Shown here: positions 1 through 22,467 of the stretch, piece after piece
Numbering within the stretch: position 1 is the first letter of the stretch
Layout: each line of letters begins with the position of its first letter
Program-made: the position numbers and the translations under genes
The notes under the pieces: generated by a model
The model's input: only the letters and a program-made list of their open reading frames with translations
The model's database searches: none
Told to the model about the DNA's origin: nothing
Virus record (IMG/VR): IMGVR_UViG_3300037584_004370
Location: 1-29,598 of that record
Direction: 5' to 3' (one strand)
Origin: a virus
Length of the DNA stretch: 29,598 bases

Positions 1-406
1 TAGGTTGTATTGTGGGTTGTATATAATGTTCAAGTCCTAAAGCATAAATCATGTCATATGCTGGGTGATAAAAAACAGTCTGGGGTTTTTGTATCTTCTC
101 ATAAATAGAAAAACTAAAATGTGATTTAGCATGCATATGTCTATCTTGAAAAGTGTTTTGATAAATGTTTCGCCAAATTTGTATTAATCTTATTTTCTTT
201 ACATTTACATCAATAAGACAATTAGATATTTTATTTAGTAGATAGCTTTCACCATTTTCGCTAAAAACATTATCTTCTGGATTATCACTAAAAGAAGATA
301 AAGTTCGACTACTCCAATGTTCCTTAAAATTTTTACTGCTAAGAAATAATTTTTGTGGTTCTATTTTAGTTACCCAAACAGGACTACCAAACAATTGTTG
401 AAACAT
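1..406 (-). CDS. Putative Fe(II)/2-oxoglutarate oxygenase, N-terminal part (cut by window edge)
   Basis: The frame opens with ATG at 406, fused to the previous stop as TAATG, and stays open for 135 codons to the window edge, so the 3' end is missing. The N-terminus (MFQQLFGSPVWVTKI) has the same pattern as the oxygenase at 1468-2013 (FETPLW near its start). A tryptophan followed by a His-x-His pair (H90, H92 in HMHAKSHFSFSIY) fits the first metal-binding strand of the PF13759-type putative 2OG-Fe(II) oxygenases. The distal histidine and the arginine that would bind 2-oxoglutarate lie outside the window. Family assignment is from pattern similarity only; substrate is unknown. It is the last visible gene of a translationally coupled late operon. 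Confidence 0.6.
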   Translation of the reverse strand, partial: MFQQLFGSPVWVTKIEPQKLFLSSKNFKEHWSSRTLSSFSDNPEDNVFSENGESYLLNKISNCLIDVNVKKIRLIQIWRNIYQNTFQDRHMHAKSHFSFSIYEKIQKPQTVFYHPAYDMIYALGLEHYIQPTIQP

Positions 407-606
407 TATTCTTTGGTTTTACTAACTAACTCCAATTTTGCAACCTTTATTTCTAGGTCTTGTTGAAAATCATCCACAGTAGTGTCAGTGTTGGGATCAG
501 CAACATCAGAATCAAAATGAGCTTTGCTATCATACACCTTACCTGTTCTTTTGTGCTTAACAATTTCTTTCGCTACCGCTGGTATCTTAATCAAATCGTC
601 AGACAT
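406..606 (-). CDS. Small conserved-type hypothetical protein (66 aa)
   Basis: This is a short charged protein without membrane segments. The N-terminal half contains KHKRTGKVYDSKAHFDSD, a mixed basic/acidic stretch, and the C-terminus (about residues 45-66) is predicted by eye to be an amphipathic helix. Both ends are fused to neighbours: its stop overlaps the ATG of the next gene at 406, and its own ATG at 606 overlaps the upstream stop, both as TAATG, which supports it as a real translated gene. I do not recognise a function. Its place among tail and oxygenase genes suggests a small virion-associated or assembly factor, but that is inference. Confidence 0.7.
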   Translation of the reverse strand: MSDDLIKIPAVAKEIVKHKRTGKVYDSKAHFDSDVADPNTDTTVDDFQQDLEIKVAKLELVSKTKE

Positions 607-827
607 TATTTTATTACCTCTGTTTCATTTAACTTTTCGTTTCCTATTTGCTTATCTATTTTATACACTTCTGAACGTAATTCAACTGCTGCCCCCATTA
701 ATTTTCCTGCAAACTTAGCAGCTCCTTCAACAGATAAATCAAAATATTTTTGTTTATTAATTATTTTTATTTCATCAAGTGTAAACTCAATTCTAAACTC
801 TTTGCCTTGTATCCTCTTAAAAATCAT
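606..827 (-). CDS. Small hypothetical protein (73 aa)
   Basis: The protein begins MIFKRIQGKEFRIEFTLDEI and continues with a region rich in Ala/Gly (VEGAAKFAGKLMGAAVELRS), which looks like a compact helix-forming domain with no signal peptide. The start at 827 overlaps the stop of the 46-aa gene upstream in an ATGA arrangement, and the stop is fused to the next ATG at 606, so translation is probably coupled across three small genes. I cannot name a family. No catalytic motif is visible. Confidence 0.7.
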   Translation of the reverse strand: MIFKRIQGKEFRIEFTLDEIKIINKQKYFDLSVEGAAKFAGKLMGAAVELRSEVYKIDKQIGNEKLNETEVIK

Positions 828-964
828 ACTCTTCCTTGTCCTTTATAGCGTTGTTTTTTCATTCTTCTTTTCTCATCCTTATTTTTATTTTTCTTGTGTG
901 CCCCAGGTCCTCTTTTCTTAGGTTTGTCTCTAGGTATAAAATGGGTAAATTTTTGTTTAGCCAT
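824..964 (-). CDS. Tiny Lys/Arg-rich phage protein (46 aa)
   Basis: Reading the minus strand gives an ATG at 964, starting MAKQKFTHFIPRDKPKKRGPG, and a lysine-rich C-terminal half ending KKQRYKGQGRV. Nearly half of the residues are Lys or Arg. It overlaps the 3' end of the 114-aa gene by eight bases and its TGA shares bases with the next ATG (ATGA). The layout, an aromatic N-terminus then a PKKR-GPG-HKK-type tail, recalls very short basic proteins found next to structural genes in many marine phages. Role unknown; nucleic-acid binding is a plausible inference. Confidence 0.75.
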   Translation of the reverse strand: MAKQKFTHFIPRDKPKKRGPGAHKKNKNKDEKRRMKKQRYKGQGRV

Positions 965-1301
965 TCTGATCTGATCTGTTTATTAATGCATAAGATATTA
1001 CTCCTTGAATTGCACTAGCTGTATCAGCTTGTATTTTTATACTATCGCTTTCTTCTAACACTAAAACCTTACCCGCAACATCAGTCTCCGTAGAAGCGTT
1101 TGCAACAGTCTTGTGAAAAAATTCTATATTACTTGCTGCACTATTATCCTTTACTTTGCATTTAACTAAAATACTTCCTGCAGTTTGATTTGTTATATTC
1201 ATACCTTTTATTAAAGCTCTTGATTGAGAATCAATAGTCAACACAGTTGTAAGATTACTTGTTGTCAGCTCAAAAGATTGATTCTTGTATTGTAAAGACA
1301 T
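957..1301 (-). CDS. Small beta-rich probable virion protein (114 aa)
   Basis: The sequence is dominated by Thr/Ser/Val/Ile-rich stretches (FELTTSNLTTVLTI, TAGSILVKCKVK, GKVLVLEESDSIKIQ), the pattern of an all-beta domain. It resembles in style the small beta proteins at 17419-18074, which also end in a term like DSIKI or a ring-forming strand. No signal peptide or membrane segment is present. The ATG at 1301 is fused to the previous stop (TAATG). A capsid decoration, tail or collar component is likely from composition and location, but no specific family is recognised. Confidence 0.7.
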   Translation of the reverse strand: MSLQYKNQSFELTTSNLTTVLTIDSQSRALIKGMNITNQTAGSILVKCKVKDNSAASNIEFFHKTVANASTETDVAGKVLVLEESDSIKIQADTASAIQGVISYALINRSDQNG

Positions 1302-1465
1302 TAATTATTAAACCAAGTAAATGCTTGGTCCTCCTCTGTTTGATCAACTTGAAACGTAGTATTAAGTTGGTCTTTTAAAGTTCTCAAGGCTTGTGCAATT
1401 TGCCTTTGGTTATCTTCAGTATATTCACTAGTAGGTTCTGGAATAATAATGTTAATTTTTGCCAT
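1301..1465 (-). CDS. Small hypothetical protein, tail-module associated (54 aa)
   Basis: A 54-codon frame starts at ATG 1465 (MAKINIIIPEPTSEYTED) just after the oxygenase stop at 1468, and ends in a TAA fused to the ATG at 1301. The middle (about residues 20-38, QRQIAQALRTLKDQLNTTFQ) looks like an amphipathic helix. The tail DQAFTWFNN is aromatic. Similar very short proteins with an RQI-QAL-T-K-QLNTT helix occur near tail genes of marine podoviruses, to my recollection. Function is unknown; the perfect fit between two flanking genes is the main evidence. Confidence 0.75.
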   Translation of the reverse strand: MAKINIIIPEPTSEYTEDNQRQIAQALRTLKDQLNTTFQVDQTEEDQAFTWFNN

Positions 1466-1467
1466 AG

Positions 1468-2013
1468 TTAAATATAAACCATATTAAATGATAATGCTAG
1501 TCGATCTTCTTGTGATCTATTAGTCTCTACCTCATGAGGCACCCAACACGGAAAAAATAGTATACCTTTTTCTACAGGTTTCAAAGAAAATTGATGCCAA
1601 AAACATTTGTCTTTTGAGTTTAAATCTTTGTGTTGAGCCACAGGGTTTGGGTTAGAAAATATTATGTTACCTGAATTTTCAGGTGTTCTCATATAATATA
1701 CTCCAGACAAATCACATCCACCATGTATATGATTTTTGTTTCTAGAACCAGGTGGGTTTTTACAAATCCAAGCAGTTGTTATAGATACACTTTGATTTGT
1801 AGTATCCTTAAATAACTCTTCTATTTTATTTTTAGAATATGCAAAGGGTCCTACTGAACACAAATTTTGTGTTTGAATAGAACCATCTACAGAACTTTTC
1901 TGTGCCATGTAATTATTTTTTACTGATTCATCAAATATTTTTAATAACAAATCAATATTTAAATTTAATTGTGAGCTCCATAATGGAGTTTCAAATAACT
2001 CATTTCGTATCAT
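1468..2013 (-). CDS. Putative Fe(II)/2-oxoglutarate oxygenase, PF13759-like
   Basis: The 181-aa protein shows the signature of the putative 2OG-Fe(II) oxygenase family PF13759. A His-x-His pair (H95, H97) is followed by LSGVYYMRTPENSGNIIFSNP at about 102-122, the strand and loop typical of the family. Later comes FFPCWVPHEVETNRSQEDR, with the distal metal ligand H160 and the likely 2-oxoglutarate-binding R171. I choose the ATG at 2013 because it overlaps the previous TGA as ATGA; a TTG two codons earlier at 2019 is possible. Family members bind Fe(II) and oxidise a substrate using 2-oxoglutarate and O2; the substrate is not deducible. It sits between another oxygenase-like gene and small tail genes. 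Confidence 0.85.
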   Translation of the reverse strand: MIRNELFETPLWSSQLNLNIDLLLKIFDESVKNNYMAQKSSVDGSIQTQNLCSVGPFAYSKNKIEELFKDTTNQSVSITTAWICKNPPGSRNKNHIHGGCDLSGVYYMRTPENSGNIIFSNPNPVAQHKDLNSKDKCFWHQFSLKPVEKGILFFPCWVPHEVETNRSQEDRLALSFNMVYI

Positions 2014-2507
2014 ATCCAAAAAAATCCATTAAGTGTTAATCGACAATCATCTTCTTGTCCATAATTTAATAAGGATTTATGTGGATAAGAACCTTTAAAA
2101 TATATAGCTCTGTTTTGTACAAAATTTATTGTCATTTGTTTTTCTTCTCCTTGATAAAAAACTGTACCAGAATCTAAATTTGTTTTAGATAAATAAACTA
2201 TTAAAGCATATTCACTAGCGTCAGTATGCACCCAATCCTTAGAATTATCTTCACTATACCTTTTATGAAATCCTAAATTTATCCCTTTGTGTTTTACAAC
2301 AGAAAACTTTTTTTTTGTAATATTTACAATGTAATCGTGTAATGTTTCGTCATGAAATAAATTTTTAGTTCTTTTACCAGGCCAAGTATTTATTTCACCA
2401 GTGTCAAAACTGAATTGATCTGCATCAAAATATTCTCTTTTATTTGCTTGCTGCAAAATAAAATCAAAATCATCAAAAAAATTATCTACTACTTGTAGAT
2501 CTTGCAT
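2010..2507 (-). CDS. DUF6445-like oxygenase-fold protein
   Basis: The 165-aa protein has the layout of DUF6445, a family related to 2-oxoglutarate/Fe(II) oxygenases. After an N-terminal VVDNFF and a WPGKRT loop (about 42-47) comes WVHTD, giving a His-x-Asp pair at H94/D96. The strand ALIVYLSK, the segment SGTVFYQG, a distal histidine H143 in SYPHKS, and R156 in CRLTLNGFFWI complete the facial-triad pattern with a 2OG-binding arginine. The start at 2507 gives full family-like length. It is coupled to the next oxygenase gene. Catalytic activity is inferred from the conserved ligands; the substrate is unknown. Confidence 0.8.
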   Translation of the reverse strand: MQDLQVVDNFFDDFDFILQQANKREYFDADQFSFDTGEINTWPGKRTKNLFHDETLHDYIVNITKKKFSVVKHKGINLGFHKRYSEDNSKDWVHTDASEYALIVYLSKTNLDSGTVFYQGEEKQMTINFVQNRAIYFKGSYPHKSLLNYGQEDDCRLTLNGFFWI

Positions 2508-2510
2508 GTG

Positions 2511-3233
2511 TTATCCGTGTAGTGCAGCACCTCTTTCAGCAGAATCGAAGCCGCTTCTACTCGCACTTCTTGTTGATCCGCTACTTGTTTGATCTGCTCC
2601 ATAGTTTTCTCGTCCAGTATCTTTGTCAGTGAAACTGCCTTTGTTGGTATTATACTTACCACTATCTATGTCTGCTTGCACCCTTTTTATATCACCTCTT
2701 CTTTGTACAGCTTCTCTTACTTTTTGATCTCTTTTTGCCTGCATGTAAGCTGCAAGTGTTTTTGATCTACCAAATAAGCTGCCTTGAATACTATCGTTTA
2801 TTCCTCCAAAGAAGCTCGCTATGCCTGCAATAGGGGCAAAGGCTAGGCCTAGTCCCGTTCCAACGGCTGCAGGCAATCCTAGGGCCTTAGCACCTAGACT
2901 TATACCCATTCTTTTTAAAGTATCTGGTATTTGTTTTTTCGGAGGTTCATTGTAATTAGATTTTTCCATTAACATTGGATCATCTGGTGCATATGTAAAA
3001 CCATCTTGATAAACCAAAGGACCAATACCTGTATTAGGAGCATTTAATGTACCCATGTTTAAACTCATGTCACTACCAGCTAAGGTTTGTAAACCTTGTT
3101 GATTTTGAAACCCTTGTTGAATAACATCCATTGCAGCAGCATTAACATTCTGCATTCTCTGATTTTGATTATATGTATCTGCAGCGTTTTGTGCTAATTG
3201 ACGATTATATTGTTCTAAAATTAAATCTTCCAT
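2511..3233 (-). CDS. Possible internal virion/ejection protein (240 aa)
   Basis: The N-terminal 50 residues are rich in Gln, Asn and Ala (EQYNRQLAQNAADTYNQNQ), the middle at about 113-148 is a small-residue hydrophobic stretch (GAKALGLPAAVGTGLGLAFA and the next ten residues), followed by a basic helix (AAYMQAKRDQKVREAVQRR) and a disordered Ser/Gly-rich tail. This mix of Q-rich, glycine/alanine hydrophobic and basic parts is reminiscent of podovirus ejection proteins that cross the host membrane, but no family is recognised. Its ATG is fused to the stop of the 717-aa tail protein (TAATG), which links its expression to tail assembly. Function is inference. Confidence 0.7.
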   Translation of the reverse strand: MEDLILEQYNRQLAQNAADTYNQNQRMQNVNAAAMDVIQQGFQNQQGLQTLAGSDMSLNMGTLNAPNTGIGPLVYQDGFTYAPDDPMLMEKSNYNEPPKKQIPDTLKRMGISLGAKALGLPAAVGTGLGLAFAPIAGIASFFGGINDSIQGSLFGRSKTLAAYMQAKRDQKVREAVQRRGDIKRVQADIDSGKYNTNKGSFTDKDTGRENYGADQTSSGSTRSASRSGFDSAERGAALHG

Positions 3234-5386
3234 TATCCTCTCATACCATCTGGTTGTACATCAGCTCTAAATGTTCCAAATCTCCAGTTTTGTCCTGTAG
3301 ATAAGTTTGCAACTTTTAAACTAGCAAATCTAGATCTTGCACGTGTATCAACCTTATCAGTTGTACTATTAATTGTAAATGGTCCAAGTGGAGAGGACGC
3401 TGCGGTGTCCGTTGGATAGTCGCGTAAATTAATGGTTACTTCAGCATCACCAACTAATAATTTAAAATCTGGAATGAATCGTTTCATACTCATAAAAAAT
3501 TGACCATCACCACCATCAGATAAGTCAAAGTCACCTGATTGTATAAATGCAGGGATTGCAGTTGCGTTACCTAAAAAATCTACTTCATCATTACCAACTT
3601 CATGTGCATAGTATGTAGATGCACCATTAGCTGCACTTACTCCTAGTATTGTAGGAAAAGATGGCGTTCCAGTATTACTAAACTCAGAAGCATATGGATT
3701 GTCATAGAGTGTTGCGTCATACCAAGAAGTTCTAGCTAAGGATCCTGTTGTCCAAGTGTTTTCTGTGTAATTAAAAGTTACTACTCTATCAATAGCAAAA
3801 GAGCCAGCTTTAGGATAGAACCAACTTATTTCTTCATACAAGTGATTTAGTCCAGCATAAATTTGTTCACCAGATGTAAAATTTATACCTAAATTATTTC
3901 CTTTAGATGTAAAAACAAAATCTTCTACCAAACAAGGTACGTTTTTAACTGTACCGTCATAAACAAAGAAACCACCTGCTTGTCCCATCCAATAAACTTT
4001 ACCATTAACATATTTAATAGAATGTTGACCTATAGCTCCACAATTACTTCCTACCTGCCTTATAGAAAATGTAAAAGGTGGTCCAACGAATTGCATTACA
4101 TATGCAGAAGTATCTGTAAGAATTAGAATATAATCTTTTGCTTTAGCAGCACCAACAATCTTAACCCCAGAGTCAAGTCTAAAAGTACCTGCAGTATTAG
4201 TTGATGTTGGTAAATATGTATCTATAGTTTCTTGATCTGAAAATCTAATAAACATTTTATCTTGAGATGTGGTTTGTCCTATATTTGTTTCTGTACCAAG
4301 TATAATTAAGTGTCTATCTCTTTCTGAAACAATAGACATTACAGATCTCGTTGGAGCTCCAGTTACTACTGTAGCTCTTGTTTGAAGAGCATTACCCGTA
4401 GCTTGTATAGGATTCCATTCATATGTTTTACCGTTCTTTACTGTAGCAATAAGTTTTTCACCAAAGTGGTCTAGTGACCAAGAAGCAGGTTCTAGAATTA
4501 CTGAACTCGTTGTAGATTCTTGTCCCCAAGCTGTATAATATTCGACTGTAGCTCCATTCAAATGTGCTGTCCTTGTTCCTGCAACAGCTCTTGTTATTCC
4601 TTCTAAAACATTTCCGGTAACAGCAGTGTATGAAATAAACTCAGTCCCCACCTTGATAGTTCCTGAGTTTGGAAAATTTGTTGTGCTTGTCAATGTAATT
4701 TCTGTTGATGACCCATTATTACCTGCAGTATCATCAGCTAAAGATCCATCGAGAGTTGATAAGGTTCCTGTTGCCCCACCGTATGAAGATGTACCCCAAC
4801 CGTAACCAGCTGTCTGCGTTAGAGGACCTACATTAACATAGGGATTTACGGTAGCAGATCCTGCAGCACTGGTCGTTCCTGTTGCTGCGGTGGCCATTGT
4901 CACTGTAAACGTATCCGCTGAAGGTGCAGATACAACTTCGAAAGTATTGGTCGTAAAGTCAGATGTTGAATAACCAGATCCTACTGGAACTACAACAGAA
5001 GTAAATGTAAGTAAGTCACCAGCTACTAAACCATGAGCAGTTTTGTTTACAGTCACTTGTGATTGTGTGTCCGTAGTATCAAAGGTAACTCCTGTAATAG
5101 TTCTATCAAAAGGTGTAATATCGTAAAAATTACCCTCGTAATAAATAATTAATGCTTTGTTAGTACCAAGTGCTGCATATCTTCTACCATCTAGGTCAGC
5201 CCAAATAAGTTGTTCTCTTACTGCTCCAACAACAGTCTTATCTGTTATTTGTTCCCACCCACCTATTTTTTCAGGCAAGCCGTATCTAAATCTTACAAAG
5301 TCACCATCTGTCCACTGGCCTTCAGCACCAGTTGCAGTAACTTGTTTATTAAATCCAGGTCTAATTTGTACGTTTGTTAATGGCAT
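3233..5386 (-). CDS. Tail nozzle-like structural protein (717 aa)
   Basis: The protein opens MPLTNVQIRPGFNKQ, with GQWTDGDFVRFRYGLPEKIG shortly after, a start I recall from large tail proteins of marine podoviruses. The body is beta-rich with repeated VIILGT/LIATVKNGKTYEW strands suggestive of a propeller, as in P22 gp10 or T7 gp12 nozzle proteins. About residues 115-170 contain an inserted domain (TAHGLVAGDLLTF), and about 225-285 another with GITRAVAGTRTAHLNGATVE, a motif seen in other phage tail proteins. Length agrees with nozzle proteins. It is followed directly by the possible ejection protein. Tail location is fairly secure; the exact homologue is inference. Confidence 0.8.
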   Translation of the reverse strand: MPLTNVQIRPGFNKQVTATGAEGQWTDGDFVRFRYGLPEKIGGWEQITDKTVVGAVREQLIWADLDGRRYAALGTNKALIIYYEGNFYDITPFDRTITGVTFDTTDTQSQVTVNKTAHGLVAGDLLTFTSVVVPVGSGYSTSDFTTNTFEVVSAPSADTFTVTMATAATGTTSAAGSATVNPYVNVGPLTQTAGYGWGTSSYGGATGTLSTLDGSLADDTAGNNGSSTEITLTSTTNFPNSGTIKVGTEFISYTAVTGNVLEGITRAVAGTRTAHLNGATVEYYTAWGQESTTSSVILEPASWSLDHFGEKLIATVKNGKTYEWNPIQATGNALQTRATVVTGAPTRSVMSIVSERDRHLIILGTETNIGQTTSQDKMFIRFSDQETIDTYLPTSTNTAGTFRLDSGVKIVGAAKAKDYILILTDTSAYVMQFVGPPFTFSIRQVGSNCGAIGQHSIKYVNGKVYWMGQAGGFFVYDGTVKNVPCLVEDFVFTSKGNNLGINFTSGEQIYAGLNHLYEEISWFYPKAGSFAIDRVVTFNYTENTWTTGSLARTSWYDATLYDNPYASEFSNTGTPSFPTILGVSAANGASTYYAHEVGNDEVDFLGNATAIPAFIQSGDFDLSDGGDGQFFMSMKRFIPDFKLLVGDAEVTINLRDYPTDTAASSPLGPFTINSTTDKVDTRARSRFASLKVANLSTGQNWRFGTFRADVQPDGMRG

Positions 5387-5409
5387 AATTTTAAACCATT
5401 ATATCAAAT

Positions 5410-5985
5410 TTATCGCTTAATTGTAACCTTGGGATAGCCTATCCCAATTCTCTTATCATATTTCCAGTCCTTATAAGGACCGTTTTGGTCAACATAATGT
5501 AAAAATACTTGTGCTTGTCCATCACCTGAATACTCATCTCTCCAATGTTCATTATCAATACCTTCATAAATAACACCATCACCAGGCTCTAAGTTAATTT
5601 CTGATTTACCAATATAGATTGGCCATGGTGTTCCATCTCCAGCTATGTTAATTGTAACAGATATCTCACAAGATTCTCTGTCAATGTGTTTTGCTAGGTG
5701 TGCACCATAAGAATACATTCTCCAAAAAGTATATGTTGGAAATAATTTTAAATTTGTTGCTCTTTCCATTAGGTCTACTTTTGATAATAATAAAGATTCC
5801 ATTATTGGATCGTCATAAAAACAAGTATCCATATTATCGCTTTGTCCTGAGCCATCAAAATTTTTAGTATTAAACCTATGTTGTATACTAGTGTAGTGCT
5901 CTAATAATAATTGTTCTTCTTTAGTAAGCATATTTTTAATTACCATGTAACCGTTTTTTATCTTGCCCATGCTACGATACTCCAT
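5410..5985 (-). CDS. Putative Fe(II)/2-oxoglutarate oxygenase (191 aa)
   Basis: The facial triad is visible: LAKHIDRESCEISVTINI gives H100 and D102, and NEHWRDEYSGDGQAQVFLHYVD gives the distal H147 with a conserved HYVD ending strand. PGDGVIYEG (about 134-142) is the usual turn before the distal histidine strand. These features fit the 2OG-Fe(II) oxygenase superfamily. The gene overlaps the upstream oxygenase by 28 bases. An internal ATG at 5970 (MGKIKNGY) has a GGAG nine bases ahead and would give 186 aa with a shorter overlap, so either start is possible. Substrate unknown; it lies directly upstream of the tail nozzle-like gene. Confidence 0.85.
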   Translation of the reverse strand: MEYRSMGKIKNGYMVIKNMLTKEEQLLLEHYTSIQHRFNTKNFDGSGQSDNMDTCFYDDPIMESLLLSKVDLMERATNLKLFPTYTFWRMYSYGAHLAKHIDRESCEISVTINIAGDGTPWPIYIGKSEINLEPGDGVIYEGIDNEHWRDEYSGDGQAQVFLHYVDQNGPYKDWKYDKRIGIGYPKVTIKR

Positions 5986-6557
5986 CTTACACCTTTAGTT
6001 ACAGGCTCAACTCCATGTGGATATAAAAAATTACTAGGCCATACAACTAAAGAATTAGGTTCTGGTTTAAGTCTCATCATTTCATTATCTCTATCATTAA
6101 AAACTAAATCACCACCCTCAAAGTCATTGTTCAATCTATAAATAAAACTTAGTGTTCTTGATATATTAAAATGATCATCTGTGTGTTGTATGTAGTGACC
6201 ACCTACTGGGTATTTTAATATTTGAATATCGGTGACATCACTTACACGAAGATGTTCGTATTGTTTATTATAATGTCTACAAGCTTTTCTAAAAGCAGCC
6301 AATAAAAAATTACACCAATGTTGATCTGTTTTAGAATCGTTTAAGTTTGTAAGACAATAATTATTAGTGTTTCTAATTTTTTTCTCAATAAATTCATTTT
6401 TTTGTATACCACCTTCTCCTATTATTGCAGCATCACCAAATTTATTCTCTGCATCTAATTTATTTATGTACTTCATTAATTTAGTGAGCACTCTGTAATC
6501 AAGAAACTCATTTATTTTAAATATGTGATCTGTTAGCGAAAAGTTTTTTTGTTCCAT
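5958..6557 (-). CDS. Putative prolyl-4-hydroxylase-like Fe(II)/2OG oxygenase (199 aa)
   Basis: This is the most canonical oxygenase of the window. ILKYPVGGHYIQHTDDHFN carries the metal ligands H125 and D127. It is followed by RTLSFIYRLNNDFEGGDLVF, the GG-L-F strand typical of prolyl hydroxylase-like (PF13640) proteins, then the distal H181 in YPHGVEPVTKGVRWSIVAW with the 2-oxoglutarate-binding R191. All catalytic positions are present, so it is probably active. Related enzymes hydroxylate protein side chains (PKHD/PiuC group) or small molecules; the substrate here is not known. It overlaps the DUF6065-like gene by 25 bases and the next oxygenase by 28 bases, indicating one translational unit. 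Confidence 0.9.
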   Translation of the reverse strand: MEQKNFSLTDHIFKINEFLDYRVLTKLMKYINKLDAENKFGDAAIIGEGGIQKNEFIEKKIRNTNNYCLTNLNDSKTDQHWCNFLLAAFRKACRHYNKQYEHLRVSDVTDIQILKYPVGGHYIQHTDDHFNISRTLSFIYRLNNDFEGGDLVFNDRDNEMMRLKPEPNSLVVWPSNFLYPHGVEPVTKGVRWSIVAWAR

Positions 6558-7270
6558 GCAATATTCTTATACTTATGTTTTAGAATTGTAAACCATCGAT
6601 ATGTGTAACTATCCGAAGCACTTTGCCTTTGTGTTTTAACTTCCATTTTCCAAGCTTCTCTTTTGAAAGGTATTACTTGAGCAAACACAGTACCCTTCTT
6701 GACAGTAAATTCTAGTTTAGGGTATTTGTCTCCATTTACAATAAATGGGAAATTTGTTTCCATTGGGTAAGTATCTGTATCAACAATACCAGGTATAATT
6801 TCAAACCTATCATCTTTGTTATTAAGTGGAGGCACAAACAAACAACTATAGTTTTTAGGTGTTCTAACTGTAAATGGATAAACTATTTTATTTACTTTTA
6901 AATTTGAATTTCTATTTAATAGTGAAGATCCTTCTAACTGCCATCTAGGATGTTCGGCATTACCTCTTTTGTTTACATTAATAGCTAATCTATCGTAGAA
7001 CTCTGGATTAGCATGATACGGGCATTTCATTTCAGTATTAGGTCTATTATCGTCATCAAGAAAATTGTGTTTAATGTAAATATCAGAAGTTGTTTTGAGA
7101 GCATACCCAGTGGTAATTGTATCTAAAAAAGGCATGCAGTTTTTAACTAAATCTTTTTTACCATCAAGTTTTTTAAACCACTCTGGTATATTTAATTTAA
7201 TTGGAACAGGTAAAATTGATTTGTCAGTAGCTATTTCTGGCTGAGTATAAAACTCTATGATTTGACTCAT
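6533..7270 (-). CDS. DUF6065-like conserved protein (245 aa)
   Basis: Segments such as IEFYTQPEIATDKSILPVP, LVKNCMPFLDTITTGYAL, PFTVRTPKNYSCLFVPPLNN and GIVDTDTYPMETNFPFI match my memory of DUF6065, a family common in marine phages and some bacteria and without known function. The C-terminus includes KKGTVFAQVIPFKREAWKME, a beta hairpin with conserved aromatic and basic residues. No catalytic motif of a known enzyme is evident. Its 3' end overlaps the prolyl-hydroxylase-like gene, and three oxygenase-like genes follow, so a related role in substrate binding or modification is an attractive but unproven idea. Confidence 0.75.
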   Translation of the reverse strand: MSQIIEFYTQPEIATDKSILPVPIKLNIPEWFKKLDGKKDLVKNCMPFLDTITTGYALKTTSDIYIKHNFLDDDNRPNTEMKCPYHANPEFYDRLAINVNKRGNAEHPRWQLEGSSLLNRNSNLKVNKIVYPFTVRTPKNYSCLFVPPLNNKDDRFEIIPGIVDTDTYPMETNFPFIVNGDKYPKLEFTVKKGTVFAQVIPFKREAWKMEVKTQRQSASDSYTYRWFTILKHKYKNIAWNKKTFR

Positions 7271-7301
7271 AGAGAATATATATACAATTATTTAAAAAAT
7301 A

Positions 7302-7760
7302 CTACGGTAATCTTTTAATGTTTCTAAATTCAGTAATATCACCATTTGTTTCTAATGGTAATATAGCGTTATTTCCGTTTGTTGGAAATGTAGTTGTAAC
7401 TGAATCTAAATCTAGATTTCTTAGCTCATTTAAGTAAGCTGTCCAAGCAGAAATTGATGCTGCATCTGTAGCTTTAGCACAAACAAGCCATTTATTTATT
7501 GCATCTATTTCGTGATTAATGTCAGCTTGAGTATCTTCTTTACTAAAGTCAACTGGATTATGATTAACTCCCCAATCAATACTTCCTCCGTTTTCACGGC
7601 ATTCATGAGTTGAGTTGTGGACTTTTGCATAATCTTCATCTGAAACAGTTACCCAAATTACATAAGGTGCATGTTCGTTGATTGCAGCTTTTTCAGCATC
7701 ACTTGATGCAAGAAAATCTGGTGTATGTCCTTCGTGATAAAATCCAATGTGTTTAGCCAT
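7302..7760 (-). CDS. Possible tail-fibre assembly chaperone (152 aa)
   Basis: The protein follows the tail-fibre gene after 12 bases and has a good ribosome-binding site (AAGGAGA, eight bases before ATG 7760). The C-terminal third contains ISAWTAYLNELRNLDLDSV (about 103-121) followed by a proline-containing segment, resembling the W-xxY-xxLR pattern of phage tail-assembly chaperones (PF16778 type). The N-terminal part has an acidic/aromatic stretch with two histidines and IWVTVSDEDYAKV. Position immediately downstream of the fibre is where such chaperones are normally encoded. The assignment relies on weak motif similarity and context. Confidence 0.6.
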   Translation of the reverse strand: MAKHIGFYHEGHTPDFLASSDAEKAAINEHAPYVIWVTVSDEDYAKVHNSTHECRENGGSIDWGVNHNPVDFSKEDTQADINHEIDAINKWLVCAKATDAASISAWTAYLNELRNLDLDSVTTTFPTNGNNAILPLETNGDITEFRNIKRLP

Positions 7761-7772
7761 AATTTATTCTCC

Positions 7773-9161
7773 TTAATTCTTAACCATTATACCAATGAAT
7801 GCAGTACCCGAAGCAGCAAAACCTGCCTGTGTTGGAACAATTGCTGGACTTGGTGAGTTTTGGTTTGTCTCTGCTCCAAGACCACCTACGTTATTTCCAT
7901 ATTCACCTAATGTACCAGGTGTTGAAAATACATTTTTCATAATGTGTCCACTAATTGCTTTAGGGTTTACAAATGTATTGTTTAAAGTTCCGTCACCACC
8001 GTTTGAACCATAAGCATTTGTAGGTGCTAACGGGCTGTAACTTACTGTTGCTAATGGGTTAACAGGAGGTAATGCGATACCTCTGTTAGAAGGGTTTCCT
8101 CCAGATTGAGGTCCTCTGTTTCCACCGTCTCCACCAGTTCCTCCCGGTGCAGTAATAAAGTTAGTTACAATAGTGTCTCCACCTGCTTGTCCTGGATTTG
8201 GCCCTGATGGTCCACCAGTTCCTGCTGCTCCAAGTGTGTATGGAGATGAAGCTAATGCAGTTGATAAAGTTGTTACGAAGAAAACCATTCCTCCAGCAGA
8301 ACCTTGAGCACCACCGAATGGACCACCGTTTTGACCAAGGTTTCCACCTCCGCCACCGGCTCCTCCTTGTGCATAAACCATAACTTCTGATCCAGCTTTC
8401 ATTTTAGTTTCTGGGTTTGCAATAACACCAGTATCACCGTTTCCTTGAACAAAAAATAATTCGTCTGCTTCACCAGCTGATCCAGAAGATGCTGCAGTAA
8501 CTTGTCCTTGAGCATTTACTGTAATACTAGCAACTGTGTAATCACCAGCAGTTACTGTTGTTGCAGAAAGTTTTGCTGATGTAATAGCAGCATCCGCTAC
8601 TTTAGCGGTTACAATTTGGTTTGCTGAAATAGCTGCAGATAAAACTGCATTGTCTGCTATTTTTGTGCTTATAATTTGGTTAGCAGAAATTTTTGCACTT
8701 GTAATTGAATCATCATCAATTTGTCCTGTTCCGATAGTTCCACCTAATGTGTCTAACGCGATTTCATTCATGTTAGTTCCATCAGAATATGCAGCAATAA
8801 TTTTTGCTTCAGTTGTTACAAAACCAGTTCCAGAAACAGTTTTAATAGTTAAATTTTGTGGAGCTACAACTGATCTCATATCTATGATGTAGAATTTTTC
8901 TATTCCATCTGGAATAGTTACAGTAGAAGCACCAGATAAAGTTCCAGTAAATTTAAGAACCATATTTCTTGCATTTGATAGGTTTGCATCTGACATTGCT
9001 AATGCAACATTTCCACCATCGTTAAGTGCAATTGATTCGAAACCAGCGATTGCTTGTTGAACTAAGTTTAAATTTGAATTTGTTTTATCACCCCATGTAC
9101 CCGCGTTTTCACCGGTTACCATTAACTCCAGTTTAAGGTCTGTTGAATAACTTGATGCCAT
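7773..9161 (-). CDS. Tail fibre / receptor-binding protein with Gly-rich tip (462 aa)
   Basis: The N-terminus (MASSYSTDLKLELMVTGENAGTWGDKTNSNLNLV) is typical of tail-fibre attachment domains in marine phages. Residues about 140-200 hold tandem SAKISANQI/STKIADNAV-type repeats of roughly 11 residues that should form a trimeric fibrous stalk. Residues about 238-410 are glycine-rich (GGAGGGGGNLGQNGG, GGTGGDGGNRG), like the polyglycine-sandwich tip of T4-type adhesins, and end in a compact C-terminal segment. The start has a strong AGGAGA ribosome-binding site. A role in host recognition is well supported by architecture; the receptor is unknown. Confidence 0.85.
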   Translation of the reverse strand: MASSYSTDLKLELMVTGENAGTWGDKTNSNLNLVQQAIAGFESIALNDGGNVALAMSDANLSNARNMVLKFTGTLSGASTVTIPDGIEKFYIIDMRSVVAPQNLTIKTVSGTGFVTTEAKIIAAYSDGTNMNEIALDTLGGTIGTGQIDDDSITSAKISANQIISTKIADNAVLSAAISANQIVTAKVADAAITSAKLSATTVTAGDYTVASITVNAQGQVTAASSGSAGEADELFFVQGNGDTGVIANPETKMKAGSEVMVYAQGGAGGGGGNLGQNGGPFGGAQGSAGGMVFFVTTLSTALASSPYTLGAAGTGGPSGPNPGQAGGDTIVTNFITAPGGTGGDGGNRGPQSGGNPSNRGIALPPVNPLATVSYSPLAPTNAYGSNGGDGTLNNTFVNPKAISGHIMKNVFSTPGTLGEYGNNVGGLGAETNQNSPSPAIVPTQAGFAASGTAFIGIMVKN

Positions 9162-9197
9162 AAAATTTTCTCCTAAATAATTTTTATTTTACCTTAT

Positions 9198-10589
9198 CTA
9201 TGCTGCTAAATCAACCTCTGTCCAAACATTAGTTACGTCAGGATCGATCTCGGCCCATGCGTTTATATTAAGCTGTCCAGCTGTTGGTGTCAATACTATA
9301 CCAGTTAATTGAACAGTTGCAGTACCAGTTATTGGTCCCACAGAACCAATAGAACTAGTTAATTGTTGACCTGTAGTTCCAACCATAACTTGTGGGATAG
9401 GTCCTTCATCTCCCATCAATGCAGTCATTCCAAATCCTGTAATAGATTCATTTGTTGACTGAATTAAAGTTATATTTCCAAGTGATGCAGTCATTCCAAT
9501 ACCGCTGACATCTACAGGAGTTATTAATCCACCAACTGCTTGACCAGCTGATCCAGTCATTCCCATTCCTGTTACAGGAACATTTGCAATACCTTTATGT
9601 GTAGTATTTCCTACTGACATTGTCATAGAGAAACTATGTGCAATCTCAGTATCGTTATTTGCTTTAGTTCCTACAGGAGTTATGAAAGTTTGTAATCCAA
9701 ATCCAGATACTTCAGCAGTAAAATTAGTACCTGCTGCTTCATCACCCATTGATGTAGTTAATTGTAAACCTGTAGCGGCAGCAGAGAACGCAACTCCCCA
9801 AGCTTGACTACCCCATTCTTGTCTACCCCAACCTATTTGAATTTTTGCATCAATCTCAATAGTACCAAGACTTGAATTTAATTGTTGACCTGTAATAGCT
9901 GCGATTTGTTCAAAAGCACCCCAAGCTCTTGTTCCCCAACCTTCTTCTCTACCCCAACCTTTTTGTACAATTCCAATTGCAGTAACTTGTCCTGTAGAAA
10001 TATTTGCTTGTAATGATTTTGTTTGAAGAGTACCTTGGATTCCCCATCCAGATTTACCCCATGACTCTCTACCCCAACCTGCATTGATTTCACCGTCTAT
10101 GGTGACCCCTGCTCCATTAAAGCCTATATTTAGAATCGAGTAAGTAGGTGCAGGAACTTGTTGTTGAGCATTACCCCAACCTCTTGTGCCCCAACCATCT
10201 TTTCTGCCCCAACCTAAATTTACATCAGCAGTTGTTTCAACAGAACCTATTGCAGTTGTCATTGACATCTGCTGAGGCATTACAGTTCCTCCAATACCCC
10301 ATGGATTAACACCATAACCTAATCGACCCCAACCGATGTTTATTTCAGTATCAATGTCGACTTGTCCTTGTGATGAGTTTAATTGTAATCCGTCAGATAT
10401 AAGGGTTCCGGAAATACCCCAGGATAGTGTGTCCCATCCTTTTCTTCCCCAACCTTCGTTAATTTCTCCTTCGTAGGTTGGAGGGCCAACACTTAGGTTC
10501 GCAAGTAGTCCGGCAGGGATCGGTGTGGTATTGTTTTGTTCACCGTAATTTCCTTGTCCCCAACTAAGCGTATCCCAAGTGTTTGCCAT
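9198..10589 (-). CDS. Repeat-rich virion/tail protein with WG boxes (463 aa)
   Basis: The whole chain is built from repeats. Six GWGR boxes at residues 46, 86, 126, 171, 211 and 253 are each followed by W-G and another W-G within about 12 residues. A second motif, a short strand ending in Gly (GLQLNSSQG, GQQLNSSLG, GMGMTGSAG), recurs at residues 27, 67, 107, 151, 192, 234, 274, 296, 319, 341, 363, 385, 407 and 430. There is no signal peptide or enzyme motif. It sits directly upstream of the fibre gene and after a small structural gene, so a tail appendage or capsid-surface role is likely. Exact function is unknown. Confidence 0.8.
   Translation of the reverse strand: MANTWDTLSWGQGNYGEQNNTTPIPAGLLANLSVGPPTYEGEINEGWGRKGWDTLSWGISGTLISDGLQLNSSQGQVDIDTEINIGWGRLGYGVNPWGIGGTVMPQQMSMTTAIGSVETTADVNLGWGRKDGWGTRGWGNAQQQVPAPTYSILNIGFNGAGVTIDGEINAGWGRESWGKSGWGIQGTLQTKSLQANISTGQVTAIGIVQKGWGREEGWGTRAWGAFEQIAAITGQQLNSSLGTIEIDAKIQIGWGRQEWGSQAWGVAFSAAATGLQLTTSMGDEAAGTNFTAEVSGFGLQTFITPVGTKANNDTEIAHSFSMTMSVGNTTHKGIANVPVTGMGMTGSAGQAVGGLITPVDVSGIGMTASLGNITLIQSTNESITGFGMTALMGDEGPIPQVMVGTTGQQLTSSIGSVGPITGTATVQLTGIVLTPTAGQLNINAWAEIDPDVTNVWTEVDLAA
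9824..10454 (-). repeat. Six WG-box coding repeats, about 120-135 bp apart
   Basis: Within the 463-aa protein, the GWGR boxes lie 40, 40, 45, 40 and 42 residues apart. On the plus strand they are visible as recurring ccccaacc stretches. The repeats are diverged in DNA but conserved at the Trp, Gly and Arg positions, which points to selection on protein structure rather than recent slippage. Confidence 0.85.
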
Positions 10590-10601
10590 TCATATTCTTC
10601 C

Positions 10602-11039
10602 TTACGCTATTCTTAATATAGCAGCTGAAGTTGTAAACGCTGGGAATTGGATAGTAAATGTTCCTGCAGTTGCAGTTTTATCACCACCAAAATCCAACAC
10701 AGCCACAGCCGAATTAGAGTTAGACGTATTGTAAATCAATGCACCTCTTGCTGTCAAAGTTACTCCAGTAAAAGACAGGTTTGCATAATCTGTAATTGCT
10801 ATTCCAGATGAAACAGAAGTTCCTGTGTTTACTAAAGCTCTTCCTCCAGATGAGTATCCGCCAGATGACGAACTAGCTTCAGAGCCAGTTGTAAATGACG
10901 TAGTTCCACTTCCTAGAGTGGCAGCACTTGTGTACATCGCTAATTTGAAAACACTTCCTCCAGAATTACTGAAGTTATGTTTACCCTCGATCAATTCTTT
11001 TTTAAAAGAATTTGTGATTGTATTTGCTGTTATTGCCAT
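10602..11039 (-). CDS. Conserved small virion protein (145 aa)
   Basis: The protein starts MAITANTITNSFKKELIEGK and contains FKLAMYTSAATLGSGTTSF, a low-complexity Ser/Gly region (about 51-70), and a beta-rich C-terminal half. I recall proteins with this start and the KLA-YTS strand as structural proteins in marine phage genomes. A strong AAGGAGA ribosome-binding site precedes ATG 11039, in line with a protein made in quantity. It lies between the adaptor genes and the WG-box repeat protein. A tail or fibre-base role is inferred from context. Confidence 0.75.
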   Translation of the reverse strand: MAITANTITNSFKKELIEGKHNFSNSGGSVFKLAMYTSAATLGSGTTSFTTGSEASSSSGGYSSGGRALVNTGTSVSSGIAITDYANLSFTGVTLTARGALIYNTSNSNSAVAVLDFGGDKTATAGTFTIQFPAFTTSAAILRIA

Positions 11040-11056
11040 AGTTGTTCTCCTTAAAA

Positions 11057-11722: not shown

Positions 11723-12162
11723 TATGCAATACTCACTGTTACTTTTGCTAAACCAATAGAAAGTTGTCTATTTCTATTTTGTTGTGATGGATTGTTTGGT
11801 ACCATACTTGATACTGAAGTGGTTTGTCCATCTCCTGTTGTAATAAAAGTCTGAGTTGAAAAAGCAAAATCACCAGGTAATGATAAATTAGCAACTGCAA
11901 CCGAAGCTCCACCAGAATCAGCTAAGGTAATATCTTGTGGAGCAACAGTTTTGGGGTTTTGAAATCTTTGTGGTCTAGCATTAGCCAAAGCAATAGCATC
12001 TGAAACAGCTTGTCTTCTTCTAATCTGTGGATGCTTAGGTTCAAACTCAGAGTAATGAACTAATGATCCATTCCATTCCTTGACCATTTCATTGTAAGGA
12101 AAAGCTTGTCCAGATCTATCTGATATAGCGTGTGATCTTTTACCTGTTGCCCATTTACCCAT
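11722..12162 (-). CDS. Conserved neck/head-completion type protein (146 aa)
   Basis: The N-terminus MGKWATGKRSHAISDRSGQAF and the segment MVKEWNGSLVHYSEFEPKHP, followed by an Arg-rich QIRRRQAVSDA, are a recognisable conserved pattern in marine phage structural modules. The C-terminal half is beta-rich with many Ser/Thr/Val. It lies between two adaptor-like genes, two bases after the first and fused TAATG to the second, so a connector or neck role is likely. The N-terminal charged/His stretch could bind metal, but no clear zinc motif is complete. Confidence 0.7.
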   Translation of the reverse strand: MGKWATGKRSHAISDRSGQAFPYNEMVKEWNGSLVHYSEFEPKHPQIRRRQAVSDAIALANARPQRFQNPKTVAPQDITLADSGGASVAVANLSLPGDFAFSTQTFITTGDGQTTSVSSMVPNNPSQQNRNRQLSIGLAKVTVSIA

Positions 12163-12164
12163 AA

Positions 12165-12860
12165 TTAAACTCCAGTAGGGTAAAAGGATTGAGGTGTAAT
12201 AAATGTTGAAGCTCTTTGACCATCTTCATCTAATGCTCTTTTCAATTCATCTTCGTAAATTAATTTATTTTGTTGTACAAGTTGTGGTGACTTTTTCATA
12301 GCTAAATAATAAGCTAATCCTGCACACATGCACGGAAGAAATCTATATGCTACATCAGCATCGTTTGTGTAAGCACCAGCATCTTCTATTCTTTTTATTA
12401 CATAGTATTTCAATGTATTATAAGTGTTCAAATCTGGAGCTTGGTATAAATATATATTAGGTGTTTTATGTCTTTGCACATAGTATTGTGATGGTTGTCC
12501 AGTTGCTAATTTATTAGGTAATGCTGAATAAGCAGATCTATCAATTTTTGTTAATGCTATATCTTGTGTATTAGCATTATCACTTGCTGCAGCAGAGCTA
12601 GATACAAAAGCTTCTAAAACATCACTTACATTTGATGCTACTGCATATTTAGCTTGTCCTTGAACCAAAGCAACTTCTTGTAAAGCTACTTTCCATAAAT
12701 GAATTCCTCTATTGCCCCATTCAGCAAATAATAAATCTAGGCTTCTTCTAGCAGATTTTAAATCAAAACCTGCATTAGTTGAAAGACCACATCTTTCATA
12801 ACCTTCATCTATTATGTCATCAATATTTAAATTGAAGCTAGTAGTTCCTGATGTCGCCAT
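12165..12860 (-). CDS. Head-tail connector/adaptor protein (231 aa)
   Basis: The start MATSGTTSFNLNIDDIIDEGYERCGL, the segment SARRSLDLLFAEWGNRGIHLWK, and the C-terminal YRFLPCMCAGLAYYLAMKKSP are strongly reminiscent of phage connector proteins that I recall next to SU10-like adaptors in marine phages. The helical N-terminal bundle, a beta middle and a C-terminal long helix (LIYEDELKRALDEDG) fit a ring-forming adaptor. A strong AAGGAGA site lies before ATG 12860. It starts the visible neck/tail block after the endolysin and the small basic genes. Confidence 0.75.
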   Translation of the reverse strand: MATSGTTSFNLNIDDIIDEGYERCGLSTNAGFDLKSARRSLDLLFAEWGNRGIHLWKVALQEVALVQGQAKYAVASNVSDVLEAFVSSSAAASDNANTQDIALTKIDRSAYSALPNKLATGQPSQYYVQRHKTPNIYLYQAPDLNTYNTLKYYVIKRIEDAGAYTNDADVAYRFLPCMCAGLAYYLAMKKSPQLVQQNKLIYEDELKRALDEDGQRASTFITPQSFYPTGV

Positions 12861-13022
12861 CTATATGTTCTCCTTTTTAGCCGCGGCTTTGTAAGTGTAT
12901 AACTTATCCTTTTTGCGGTTGTACAACTTCTTTAATTGTACCACTTTTTGACTAAACTTTGAAGACCTTAGGTTTTTTGCGACTGGGTTTGACTTTGACT
13001 CGTAATTTTTTTCTTTTTTCAC
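12861..13022 (-). CDS. Overlapping GTG-start small basic protein (53 aa)
   Basis: A hidden frame begins at GTG 13022, with GAGAGG eight bases upstream, and ends in TAG one base before the connector ATG. The product starts VKKEKNYESKSNPVAKNLRS and continues FSQKVVQLKKLYNRKKDKL. The NPVAKNLR plus KVV-x-KK-x-Y-x-RKK pattern matches tiny proteins I remember from cyanophages and pelagiphages. It shares 71 bases with the 43-aa gene in a different frame, and it fills a stretch that otherwise would be non-coding. The last codons carry the ribosome-binding site of the connector. Role unknown, possibly nucleic-acid or capsid associated. Confidence 0.7.
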   Translation of the reverse strand: MKKEKNYESKSNPVAKNLRSSKFSQKVVQLKKLYNRKKDKLYTYKAAAKKENI

Positions 13023-13083
13023 CTCTTGCACCTCTCAGTTTACCATCTATTTGTGCTGGTATTTGTCCTCTTGATATTGCCAT
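12952..13083 (-). CDS. Tiny lysine/arginine-rich protein (43 aa)
   Basis: ATG 13083 is fused to the endolysin stop (TAATG). The product MAISRGQIPAQIDGKLRGARG continues with a dense KRKKLRVKVKPSRKKPK tail. The MAISRGQIP-Q start followed by a basic end is typical of very short proteins in marine phage late regions. Its 3' part overlaps the GTG-start gene by 71 bases. No enzyme or membrane feature is present; binding of DNA or RNA is a reasonable guess from charge alone. Confidence 0.75.
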   Translation of the reverse strand: MAISRGQIPAQIDGKLRGARGEKRKKLRVKVKPSRKKPKVFKV

Positions 13084-13559
13084 TAAACTAAATCTTTAGC
13101 CTTTCCCATTATTGGTTTGTATTTAGTTTTACCCTCTGATTTGTATGCATGCAAGAATTGTTTTCTTGGTTGGTCGGTAGTATAGCTGCAATGTATCCAC
13201 CCACTGTTAGGCTCACCAGGAGTATAGAACTCAAGAATCAATTGATCGAATTCTAAGTTCATATAAATCCAATCAGCTAATTCAGCATTGTCAGTTCCCA
13301 TACATTCAAAATCTGCCGCCTCTGCTTTTGCATGTTGGCTGTTGACTGAGCTACCTATTTTTAGGCACAGCTGTTCTGAACGGAAACCGCTCGTCACCTT
13401 GACCCTGCCAAAGTGATCACGCACTGGCTGCAAAATATTTTCACAAAGTGCTTTTAGTTTTTCTATCTGACCTGAATTTGGATTGTTATTGATGTCCAAC
13501 CTAACAGCAGTGTCTGATTTAATTAATTCTTGAAGAGTGAAGTTACGAGATAAATTCAT
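13083..13559 (-). CDS. Endolysin, M15-type zinc peptidase (158 aa)
   Basis: The Peptidase_M15 signature is clear. VTSGFRSEQLCLKIGSSVNSQH (about 55-76) leads to the ligand H76, AADFE supplies D83, and SGWIHCSY supplies H123; LILEF near E110 may carry the catalytic acid. Members of PF08291-type cut peptide cross-links of peptidoglycan (D-Ala-D-Ala or L-Ala-D-Glu bonds). The length of 158 aa is normal for single-domain phage endolysins. There is no signal peptide, so a holin is needed for release. The start overlaps the oxygenase stop as ATGA. A virion-associated lysin is the alternative role. Confidence 0.9.
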   Translation of the reverse strand: MNLSRNFTLQELIKSDTAVRLDINNNPNSGQIEKLKALCENILQPVRDHFGRVKVTSGFRSEQLCLKIGSSVNSQHAKAEAADFECMGTDNAELADWIYMNLEFDQLILEFYTPGEPNSGWIHCSYTTDQPRKQFLHAYKSEGKTKYKPIMGKAKDLV

Positions 13560-14059
13560 GTGTAAATAATAATGTTTAAATTATATCTTAATCCTTTTGT
13601 AGGTCCAGTCCCTCTATGAACTTTATTACTGTCGAAAACAATAGCTTCTGAAGCTTTGCTAACAAATTGTGAATTATCAATTTCAGTTGTTCCATCATTT
13701 GTATTTAAATTATATAGAATACTAACACAGTTTGGATGCTCACTGTCAATATGTAGCTTACCTCTAGAAAGAGGATGATAAAAGTTATAATTAACTCTTT
13801 TTAATCCCTTAAATTTAACTTTCAATTTACTACAAACAATAGATGCAACTATATGTGCAAACATATTTAAGGTTTGTGTGTTTTTATTTACAATACAATT
13901 GTCACCAAAAGTTCTAAGTGCTAATCCTTCATCTTCATTTAAAAAACTATTTGGTATTTTTTCATCAAAACCAAAATACCAACCTTCAGTTTGTTTTAAT
14001 AATTGTATTATATCTTTGTTGATATTTTCAGGTAGGATTGAGGATACTACTTCTTGCAT
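13556..14059 (-). CDS. Putative Fe(II)/2-oxoglutarate oxygenase (167 aa)
   Basis: The segment FYHPLSRGKLHIDSEHPNCVS provides the metal ligands H103 and D105; SILYNLNTNDG gives the following strand with a glycine turn; EAIVFDSNKVHRGTGPTKGLRYNLNI supplies the distal H148 and the 2-oxoglutarate-binding R158. The HxD...H...R spacing is normal for small non-haem oxygenases. It overlaps the 3' end of the carbamoyltransferase by 13 bases and the endolysin by four bases. Coupling to the carbamoyltransferase suggests that both may modify the same glycan or small molecule, which is inference. Confidence 0.85.
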   Translation of the reverse strand: MQEVVSSILPENINKDIIQLLKQTEGWYFGFDEKIPNSFLNEDEGLALRTFGDNCIVNKNTQTLNMFAHIVASIVCSKLKVKFKGLKRVNYNFYHPLSRGKLHIDSEHPNCVSILYNLNTNDGTTEIDNSQFVSKASEAIVFDSNKVHRGTGPTKGLRYNLNIIIYT

Positions 14060-22289: not shown

Positions 22290-22467
22290 ACTCCGTGTTT
22301 GTCAGCAGGTCTTTTAGATCCTGTTGCAGATCTTCTAATGATCTGATTTGACCTCTAACATATTGTAGTTTCTCCATAGTGTCAACACCATATATAGCGT
22401 GGTCTTTGAGTTGTTGAAGACTTTTCTTAATTCTTCTTTGTACTAATGAAATTGTATCTATATCCAT
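22249..22467 (-). CDS. Small coiled-coil hypothetical protein (72 aa)
   Basis: The product (MDIDTISLVQRRIKKSLQQL...) is nearly all helical with heptad-like leucines and ends in an acidic tail (EYEDEQVHGDTETD). Its ATG is fused to the stop of the methyltransferase-glycosyltransferase gene (TAATG) and its 3' end overlaps the GroES-like gene by 41 bases. I do not recognise a family. Such short helical proteins in head modules are often assembly factors, but this is a guess. Confidence 0.7.
   Translation of the reverse strand: MDIDTISLVQRRIKKSLQQLKDHAIYGVDTMEKLQYVRGQIRSLEDLQQDLKDLLTNTEYEDEQVHGDTETD

Follow-up and report, generated by a model that had tools for sequence, protein, structure and literature searches.

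Clustered oxygenase-like genes in the tail region of an HTVC023P-type pelagiphage and reassignment of the phage 'ferrochelatase' family PHROG 2954

We analysed a stretch of 29,598 nucleotides of viral DNA (IMG/VR record IMGVR_UViG_3300037584_004370), hereafter the window, in which six oxygenase-like genes, designated A to F, lie interleaved with genes for tail proteins (Table 1). The six reading frames, all on the minus strand, had been pointed out by a first-pass annotation made from the sequence, which placed them correctly. The window corresponds to positions 10209-39806 of the 63,122-base viral contig G001, with 99.97% identity over its full length. Its portal protein is 62% identical over 94% to that of Pelagibacter phage HTVC023P, and its capsid, fibre, structural and tail genes have homologues in the HTVC023P lineage; by portal, capsid and gene order, the window is assigned to an HTVC023P-type pelagiphage. 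Phages of this type are reported to be the most abundant pelagiphages known in the ocean, with ~7.6% of viromic reads (PMC12753301).

Table 1. Oxygenase-like genes and selected neighbours, in window positions
Feature	Position	Strand	Remarks
Oxygenase A	2-406, runs off window edge	minus	PF13759/phrog_81 type
Oxygenase B	1468-2013 (1468-2019 if TTG start)	minus	PF13759/TIGR02466; HxH...H...R
Oxygenase C	2010-2507	minus	PF20043 (DUF6445); HxD...H...R; 4-nt overlap with B
Virion structural protein, tail/nozzle-like	3233-5386	minus	phrog_3287; conserved neighbour of D-E
Oxygenase D	5410-5985	minus	PHROG 2954 'ferrochelatase' (misnomer); predicted double-stranded beta-helix fold; HxD...H, Gln in place of 2-oxoglutarate Arg
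Oxygenase E	5958-6557	minus	PF13640, PHD2-like; 28-nt overlap with D
Protein X	6533-7270	minus	phrog_7084; 25-nt overlap with E
Tail-fibre-like protein, glycine-rich C-terminal part	7773-9161	minus	candidate substrate
Oxygenase F	13556-14059	minus	phrog_274; HxD...H...R; 'endonuclease V' label unsupported
NodU-like carbamoyltransferase	14047-15654	minus	PF16861, PF02543, phrog_1601; 13-nt overlap with F

An HxD or HxH pair is present in all six proteins, each with a distal His, and an Arg of the type that binds 2-oxoglutarate (2OG) follows the distal His by 10-13 residues in B, C, E and F; at this place D has Gln and the completed A has Thr/Met. Pair and distal His arise by chance in 16-42% of trials with shuffled proteins and are also found in 36 of 264 other phage open reading frames (ORFs) of similar size. 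This chance frequency is too high for motif counting to serve as evidence, and we dropped it; because the motif alone is weak, the evidence must rest on profiles and folds. In searches with Pfam hidden Markov models A, B, C and E reach the curated cut-offs, and the profiles of PF13759, PF20043 and PF13640 are all matched, as expected from the earlier proposal of at least three sub-types. B matches PF13759 with 65.6 bits (cut-off 27) and TIGR02466 with 84.3 bits, and E matches PF13640 with 67.9 bits (cut-off 27), while A, which carries HMH and a distal His, crosses the PF13759 cut-off only as its full-length copy in G001 (10102-10614, 170 amino acids; 32.3 bits, cut-off 27). C matches PF20043 over residues 3-135 (27.8 bits, cut-off 24), and its assignment rests on this DUF6445 match and its profile linkage to the superfamily. 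E also aligns with human PHD2 by sequence (E = 1e-5, iron ligands aligned), and 59 sequences all keep its residues H125, D127, H181 and R191. Iterated profiles join A, B, C, E, F and two more G001 genes in one superfamily and leave D outside; the resulting 'types' overlap because the profiles were iterated, and are to be read as groupings and not as orthologue sets.

D and F matched no Pfam family, only PHROGs ('ferrochelatase', 'DNA endonuclease V' or related oxygenase PHROGs), and it was for these two proteins that structures were predicted with AlphaFold2. Both models show a double-stranded beta-helix (DSBH), the fold that the first-pass annotation had named as decisive. For F (pLDDT 90.2, pTM 0.87) the Foldseek matches in the PDB include a Pseudomonas prolyl-4-hydroxylase and PHD2, and both His residues are invariant in a 40-row alignment. 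For F, no Pfam family matched at E <= 1 and the PDB matches listed are oxygenases; the 'endonuclease V' and 'minor coat protein' labels of F and C are unsupported. The PHROG matches of the six ORFs are phrog_81 twice, phrog_1644/274, phrog_2954, phrog_61 and phrog_274. PHROG 274, 1644, 2954 and 3531, which are matched among C, D, E and F and have oxygenase-like members here, bear the names 'DNA endonuclease V', 'minor coat protein' or 'ferrochelatase', and these names have passed into automated annotation. Between G001 and its relative G008, dN/dS values of 0.18-0.31 for A, B, D, E and F indicate purifying selection; C is absent from this test because no orthologue of it was identified in G008. 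All six proteins are almost certainly DSBH iron oxygenases. We infer the iron-binding triad from sequence position and fold match rather than from measured geometry; catalysis by A to F would be Fe(II)-dependent, and 2OG-dependent in the Arg-bearing proteins.

D is the one member of the set outside the profile-linked superfamily. A phmmer search of the PDB with D matched nothing, and hhalign against the other oxygenase profiles gave probabilities of only 3-36%, with HxD aligned to HxD. Since sequence methods were too weak for D, a structure model was needed. In this model (mean pLDDT 90.2, pTM 0.86) all of the best 50 PDB matches listed are oxygenases, with a top E of 3.6e-8, and the best fold alignments of D and F to PHD2 and prolyl-4-hydroxylases have 14-18% identity. 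H100, D102 and H147 are invariant in D and 47 relatives (48 sequences). The predicted fold thus marks D as an oxygenase-type protein, which appears new with respect to published naming, and D may bind its co-substrate without the usual Arg, with Gln standing in its place.

PHROG 2954 has nevertheless been read as a ferrochelatase that gives haem or iron to partner 2OG oxygenases. The name stands in PHROG 2954 itself, in Wittmers 2022 (PMC9599517) and in a 2024 Western English Channel study (PMC11561400); these two surveys discuss the gene as an auxiliary one, related to iron/haem or enriched seasonally, and the later one cites the oxygenase-ferrochelatase pairing of the earlier. A cluster described as 'Hyp. 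with ferrochetalase domain', T4-GC 615, already appears in Sullivan 2010 (PMC3037559), and this cluster number is borne by P-RSM4. Against this reading, no PF00762 ferrochelatase signal was found in 48 PHROG 2954 members or 10 phage genomes, with ferrochelatase detected in 8 of 14 cellular genomes as a control; D has 190 amino acids against 317 positions in the ferrochelatase model, its fold is that of an oxygenase and not of a chelatase, and haem is not used by 2OG oxygenases. A chelatase role for D is therefore already contradicted and hardly tenable, and we are nearly certain that PHROG 2954 is not a ferrochelatase. Two Synechococcus phages, S-T4 and ACG-2014f, encode the D domain and an E-type oxygenase as a single fusion protein, of 386 and 362 amino acids respectively. 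In the ACG-2014f fusion, the second half matches PF13640 with 63 bits, and the D half has a sub-threshold match to 2OG-FeII_Oxy_2. Fold and fusions together indicate that the published partnership of ferrochelatase and oxygenase is a pair of two oxygenases. The double name in the GenBank record of 023Pt_psg01 already hints at this.

The first-pass annotation regarded six such genes as dense. The density is real and the genes are interleaved with tail genes, but it is a lineage trait that had already been published and is not special to this phage: Wittmers 2022 describes eight non-orthologous oxygenase types in the HTVC023P lineage (PMC9599517). By the same profiles, nine ORFs of G001 as a whole are oxygenase-like, counting one fragment of a gene that is broken into two reading frames, and other HTVC023P-type genomes hold three (HTVC027P), four (HTVC023P, G009), five (023Pt_psg01) or seven (G002, G008, G010). 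Marine myophages reach 8 (S-T4), 11 (P-RSM4 and P-SSM7), 12 (Mosig) and 14 (S-CAM9), and cyanophage S-SCSM1 has 24 such oxygenases (PMC9602691). With 3-9 in relatives and 8-20 in marine myophages, six is not exceptional, and the homologues are multi-copy and clustered rather than single genes at unrelated sites. The largest set in our counts is that of Pelagibacter phage HTVC008M, with 20 oxygenase-like ORFs in a 147-kb genome. The split gene of G001 (PF13759, 54191-54759) consists of overlapping ORFs of 103 and 100 amino acids, and its frameshift may be real or an assembly error. G003 (83,261 bases) was excluded from the counts as a possible chimera; it carries two each of the fibre, structural gene, M15 and D-E sets, as a two-phage chimera or an unusual double genome would.

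The arrangement around D and E is conserved. Among 59 distinct D loci, most of them fetched through D itself, the gene immediately upstream of D encodes an oxygenase in 51 (one of E type in 42), the two genes overlap by 13 nt in 35, a homologue of the structural gene 3233-5386 is present in 57 and a fibre in 43; these adjacency counts hinge on the ORF filter because the genes were taken from mechanical ORFs. Protein X has an oxygenase as its neighbour in 45 of 46 cases and is a fixed partner of the E-D pair; it has a sub-threshold dUTPase-like match. The carbamoyltransferase next to F matches PF16861 (145.1 bits) and PF02543 (57.9 bits); it misses the equivalog cut-off of NodU itself (109 against 1000), while family membership holds. 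Of 32 distinct cases of NodU-like carbamoyltransferases, 21 lie directly beside an oxygenase, as compared with 3 of 25 and 0 of 24 for two glycosyltransferases and 1 of 35 for a tail gene. Both carbamoyltransferases of G001 overlap an oxygenase gene, A being joined to the second one by 4 nt. This adjacency, seen in many relatives and in two pairs here, appears to be new. It is not universal: five of eight phage isolates lack it, and so do G010 and Mosig.

A sugar-related use of these enzymes is one possible reading of their neighbourhood. Beyond window position 1, at 6226-10614 of G001, A, the second carbamoyltransferase and three glycosyltransferase-like genes (DXD-type, group-1 and Anp1-like, with overlapping ends) stand in a row, and the carbamoyltransferase of P-SSM2 sits among sugar-nucleotide genes. 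NodU-type carbamoyltransferases use sugars as substrates. Oxygenases, carbamoyltransferases and glycosyltransferases could form a sugar-decorating cassette that acts on surface glycans or lipids of host or phage, and not on virion proteins, and alters the envelope of the infected cell, for example to block superinfection. Since glycosyltransferases seldom adjoin oxygenases in the counts above, and protein prolyl hydroxylases are among the top structural matches of D and F, we consider such a cassette unlikely.

A second feature of the neighbourhood concerns glycine-rich genes, defined here as ORFs with at least 18 Gly in 60 residues. In HTVC023P-type genomes, HTVC033P and Mosig, nearly all of these ORFs are fibre- or adhesin-like and close to the oxygenase block, and many match PF21722 (Gly_rich_2); composition and position suggest that PF21722-type genes encode adhesins. 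PF21722 genes adjoin the block in S-CAM8, P-RSM4, HTVC008M, Mosig, HTVC033P and HTVC023P, with the order PF21722 gene, carbamoyltransferase, E, D in P-RSM4 and S-CAM8. In 10 of the 12 genomes examined, D is no more than 2.7 kb away from adhesin-like genes that are rich in glycine and often match PF21722, a closeness that appears not to have been described before. In nine genomes, 29 oxygenases lie at most 5 kb from a glycine-rich gene, against 9.0 expected from circular shifts (p = 0.0006), and the distance from D to glycine-rich genes gives a Fisher p of 0.001 in eight less related genomes, or 0.001-0.006 at other thresholds. A collagen-like substrate was rejected, as the scanned genomes have no long GXX run (the longest, of 7, is in HTVC023P).

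The first-pass annotation had proposed that the oxygenases hydroxylate virion or host-surface molecules. Genomic context favours tail fibres and adhesins as the putative substrates, and we give a probability of about 0.4 to the proposal that the array hydroxylates tail-fibre or adhesin proteins. Side chains of newly made fibre or adhesin proteins would be hydroxylated in the infected cell, before assembly, and the prime candidate would be the glycine-rich fibre whose gene neighbours E and D. The overlap of their genes and the cyanophage fusions indicate that D and E would act as a pair. In phages that have a carbamoyltransferase gene next to an oxygenase gene, the new hydroxyl may then be carbamoylated, and a varied receptor-binding surface is a possible benefit. 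Family, fold (modelled for D and F), conserved iron ligands in D and E, purifying selection, and the conserved pairing and location are well supported by the data; catalytic activity, substrate, timing, order of reactions and benefit are what we infer. Quite unlikely in full is the most specific version, a two-step pathway in which paired oxygenases would hydroxylate, and NodU-like enzymes carbamoylate, polyglycine-type receptor-binding adhesins and so diversify the binding surface of abundant ocean phages, with PHROG 2954 as a new DSBH family therein that binds its co-substrate without Arg.

Several observations weigh against hydroxylation of fibres. In G001, three oxygenases are located at 50-55 kb, well away from the tail genes. 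The adjacency counts are inflated because most loci were fetched through D, and of the eight isolates fetched by the carbamoyltransferase itself only three show the oxygenase pairing. Per-genome circular-shift tests are each non-significant (0.05 or above), only the pooled tests being significant, and the genomes that first showed the glycine-rich link, few and partly related, are those on which it was then tested. In the cyanophages P-SSM7 and ACG-2014f, D is remote from fibre genes, D of S-T4 lies 7 kb from a glycine-rich gene, and HTVC027P has three oxygenases yet no glycine-rich ORF at the threshold used. The association of oxygenases with glycine-rich genes is thus a lead and not a proof.

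Modification of glycans or lipids and action on unrelated host proteins are the chief rivals of fibre hydroxylation. In the latter case, the paralogues would hit separate targets, such as host translation factors, ribosomal proteins or regulators, and the tail region would merely tolerate insertions. The paralogues are indeed highly divergent, one matched Pseudomonas prolyl-4-hydroxylase structure is that of a complex with EF-Tu, relatives differ strongly in gene content, and several oxygenases lie outside the tail region. Separate targets are possible but not likely, given that E and D are conserved as an overlapping pair placed between the fibre gene and the structural gene, and that PF21722 genes recur next to the pair in different phage types. 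Action on nucleic acids or metabolism, through DNA repair, hypermodification or a 2OG drain that alters nitrogen signalling, would agree with the DNA repair and 2OG/NtcA roles proposed by Sullivan 2010 (PMC3037559), with a weak, below-cut-off match of the fused cyanophage protein to Tet_JBP (E = 0.0015) and with one AlkB-domain structure, of low TM-score, among the 50 best matches of D. The best matches are, however, protein hydroxylases, the block sits with tail genes in HTVC023P-type genomes, and bulk consumption of 2OG needs no set of many divergent paralogues, which makes this explanation very unlikely.

Related systems are known. The pelagiphage sets of Wittmers 2022 (PMC9599517) belong to the same lineage, with several non-orthologous oxygenases and the 'ferrochelatase' always beside an oxygenase. 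Here, in contrast, the 'ferrochelatase' itself has an oxygenase fold, and we note a pairing with carbamoyltransferases and a neighbourhood of glycine-rich adhesins, neither of which occurs in the passages of that study consulted (with zero mentions of carbamoyltransferase). T4-like cyanophage arrays (PMC9602691, PMC3037559) likewise contain PF13640 and PF13759 proteins in many divergent copies, but these occur in cyanobacterial myoviruses and the roles proposed there are in host metabolism and nitrogen signalling. The DSBH fold and HxD...H are also those of PHD2/EGLN1 and bacterial prolyl-4-hydroxylases, which E matches by sequence as well, with its Arg, whereas D is without the 2OG Arg at the usual place. 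Among the fold matches are the viral DSBH hydroxylases PBCV-1 vCPH (5c5t) and mimivirus lysyl hydroxylase (6ax7), which provide a model for hydroxylation of viral proteins; these enzymes act on collagen-like substrates, whereas no long GXX run was found here. No oxygenase is named among the non-structural virion proteins of S-SCSM1, 13 of which have no assigned function (PMC9602691), which agrees better with a role as an enzyme than as a component of the virion. We found no report of hydroxylated marine-phage fibres in the portions of the open-access literature available to us.

Two further ORFs of the window deserve mention. ORF 22467-23612 combines a methyltransferase domain and a glycosyltransferase-like domain amid head genes, and G008 has a 206-amino-acid relative in its place. 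By the portal gene, a 113-amino-acid ORF (25098-25439) contains GLFDGEGSF, which by eye resembles a LAGLIDADG-type homing endonuclease.

We found in the literature no tested function for HTVC023P-type oxygenase arrays or for their 'ferrochelatase' partner. The placement of PHROG 2954 among the oxygenases removes the basis of the ferrochelatase reading and makes a question directly testable, namely whether virion fibres or adhesins of isolates HTVC023P and HTVC027P are hydroxylated or carbamoylated.

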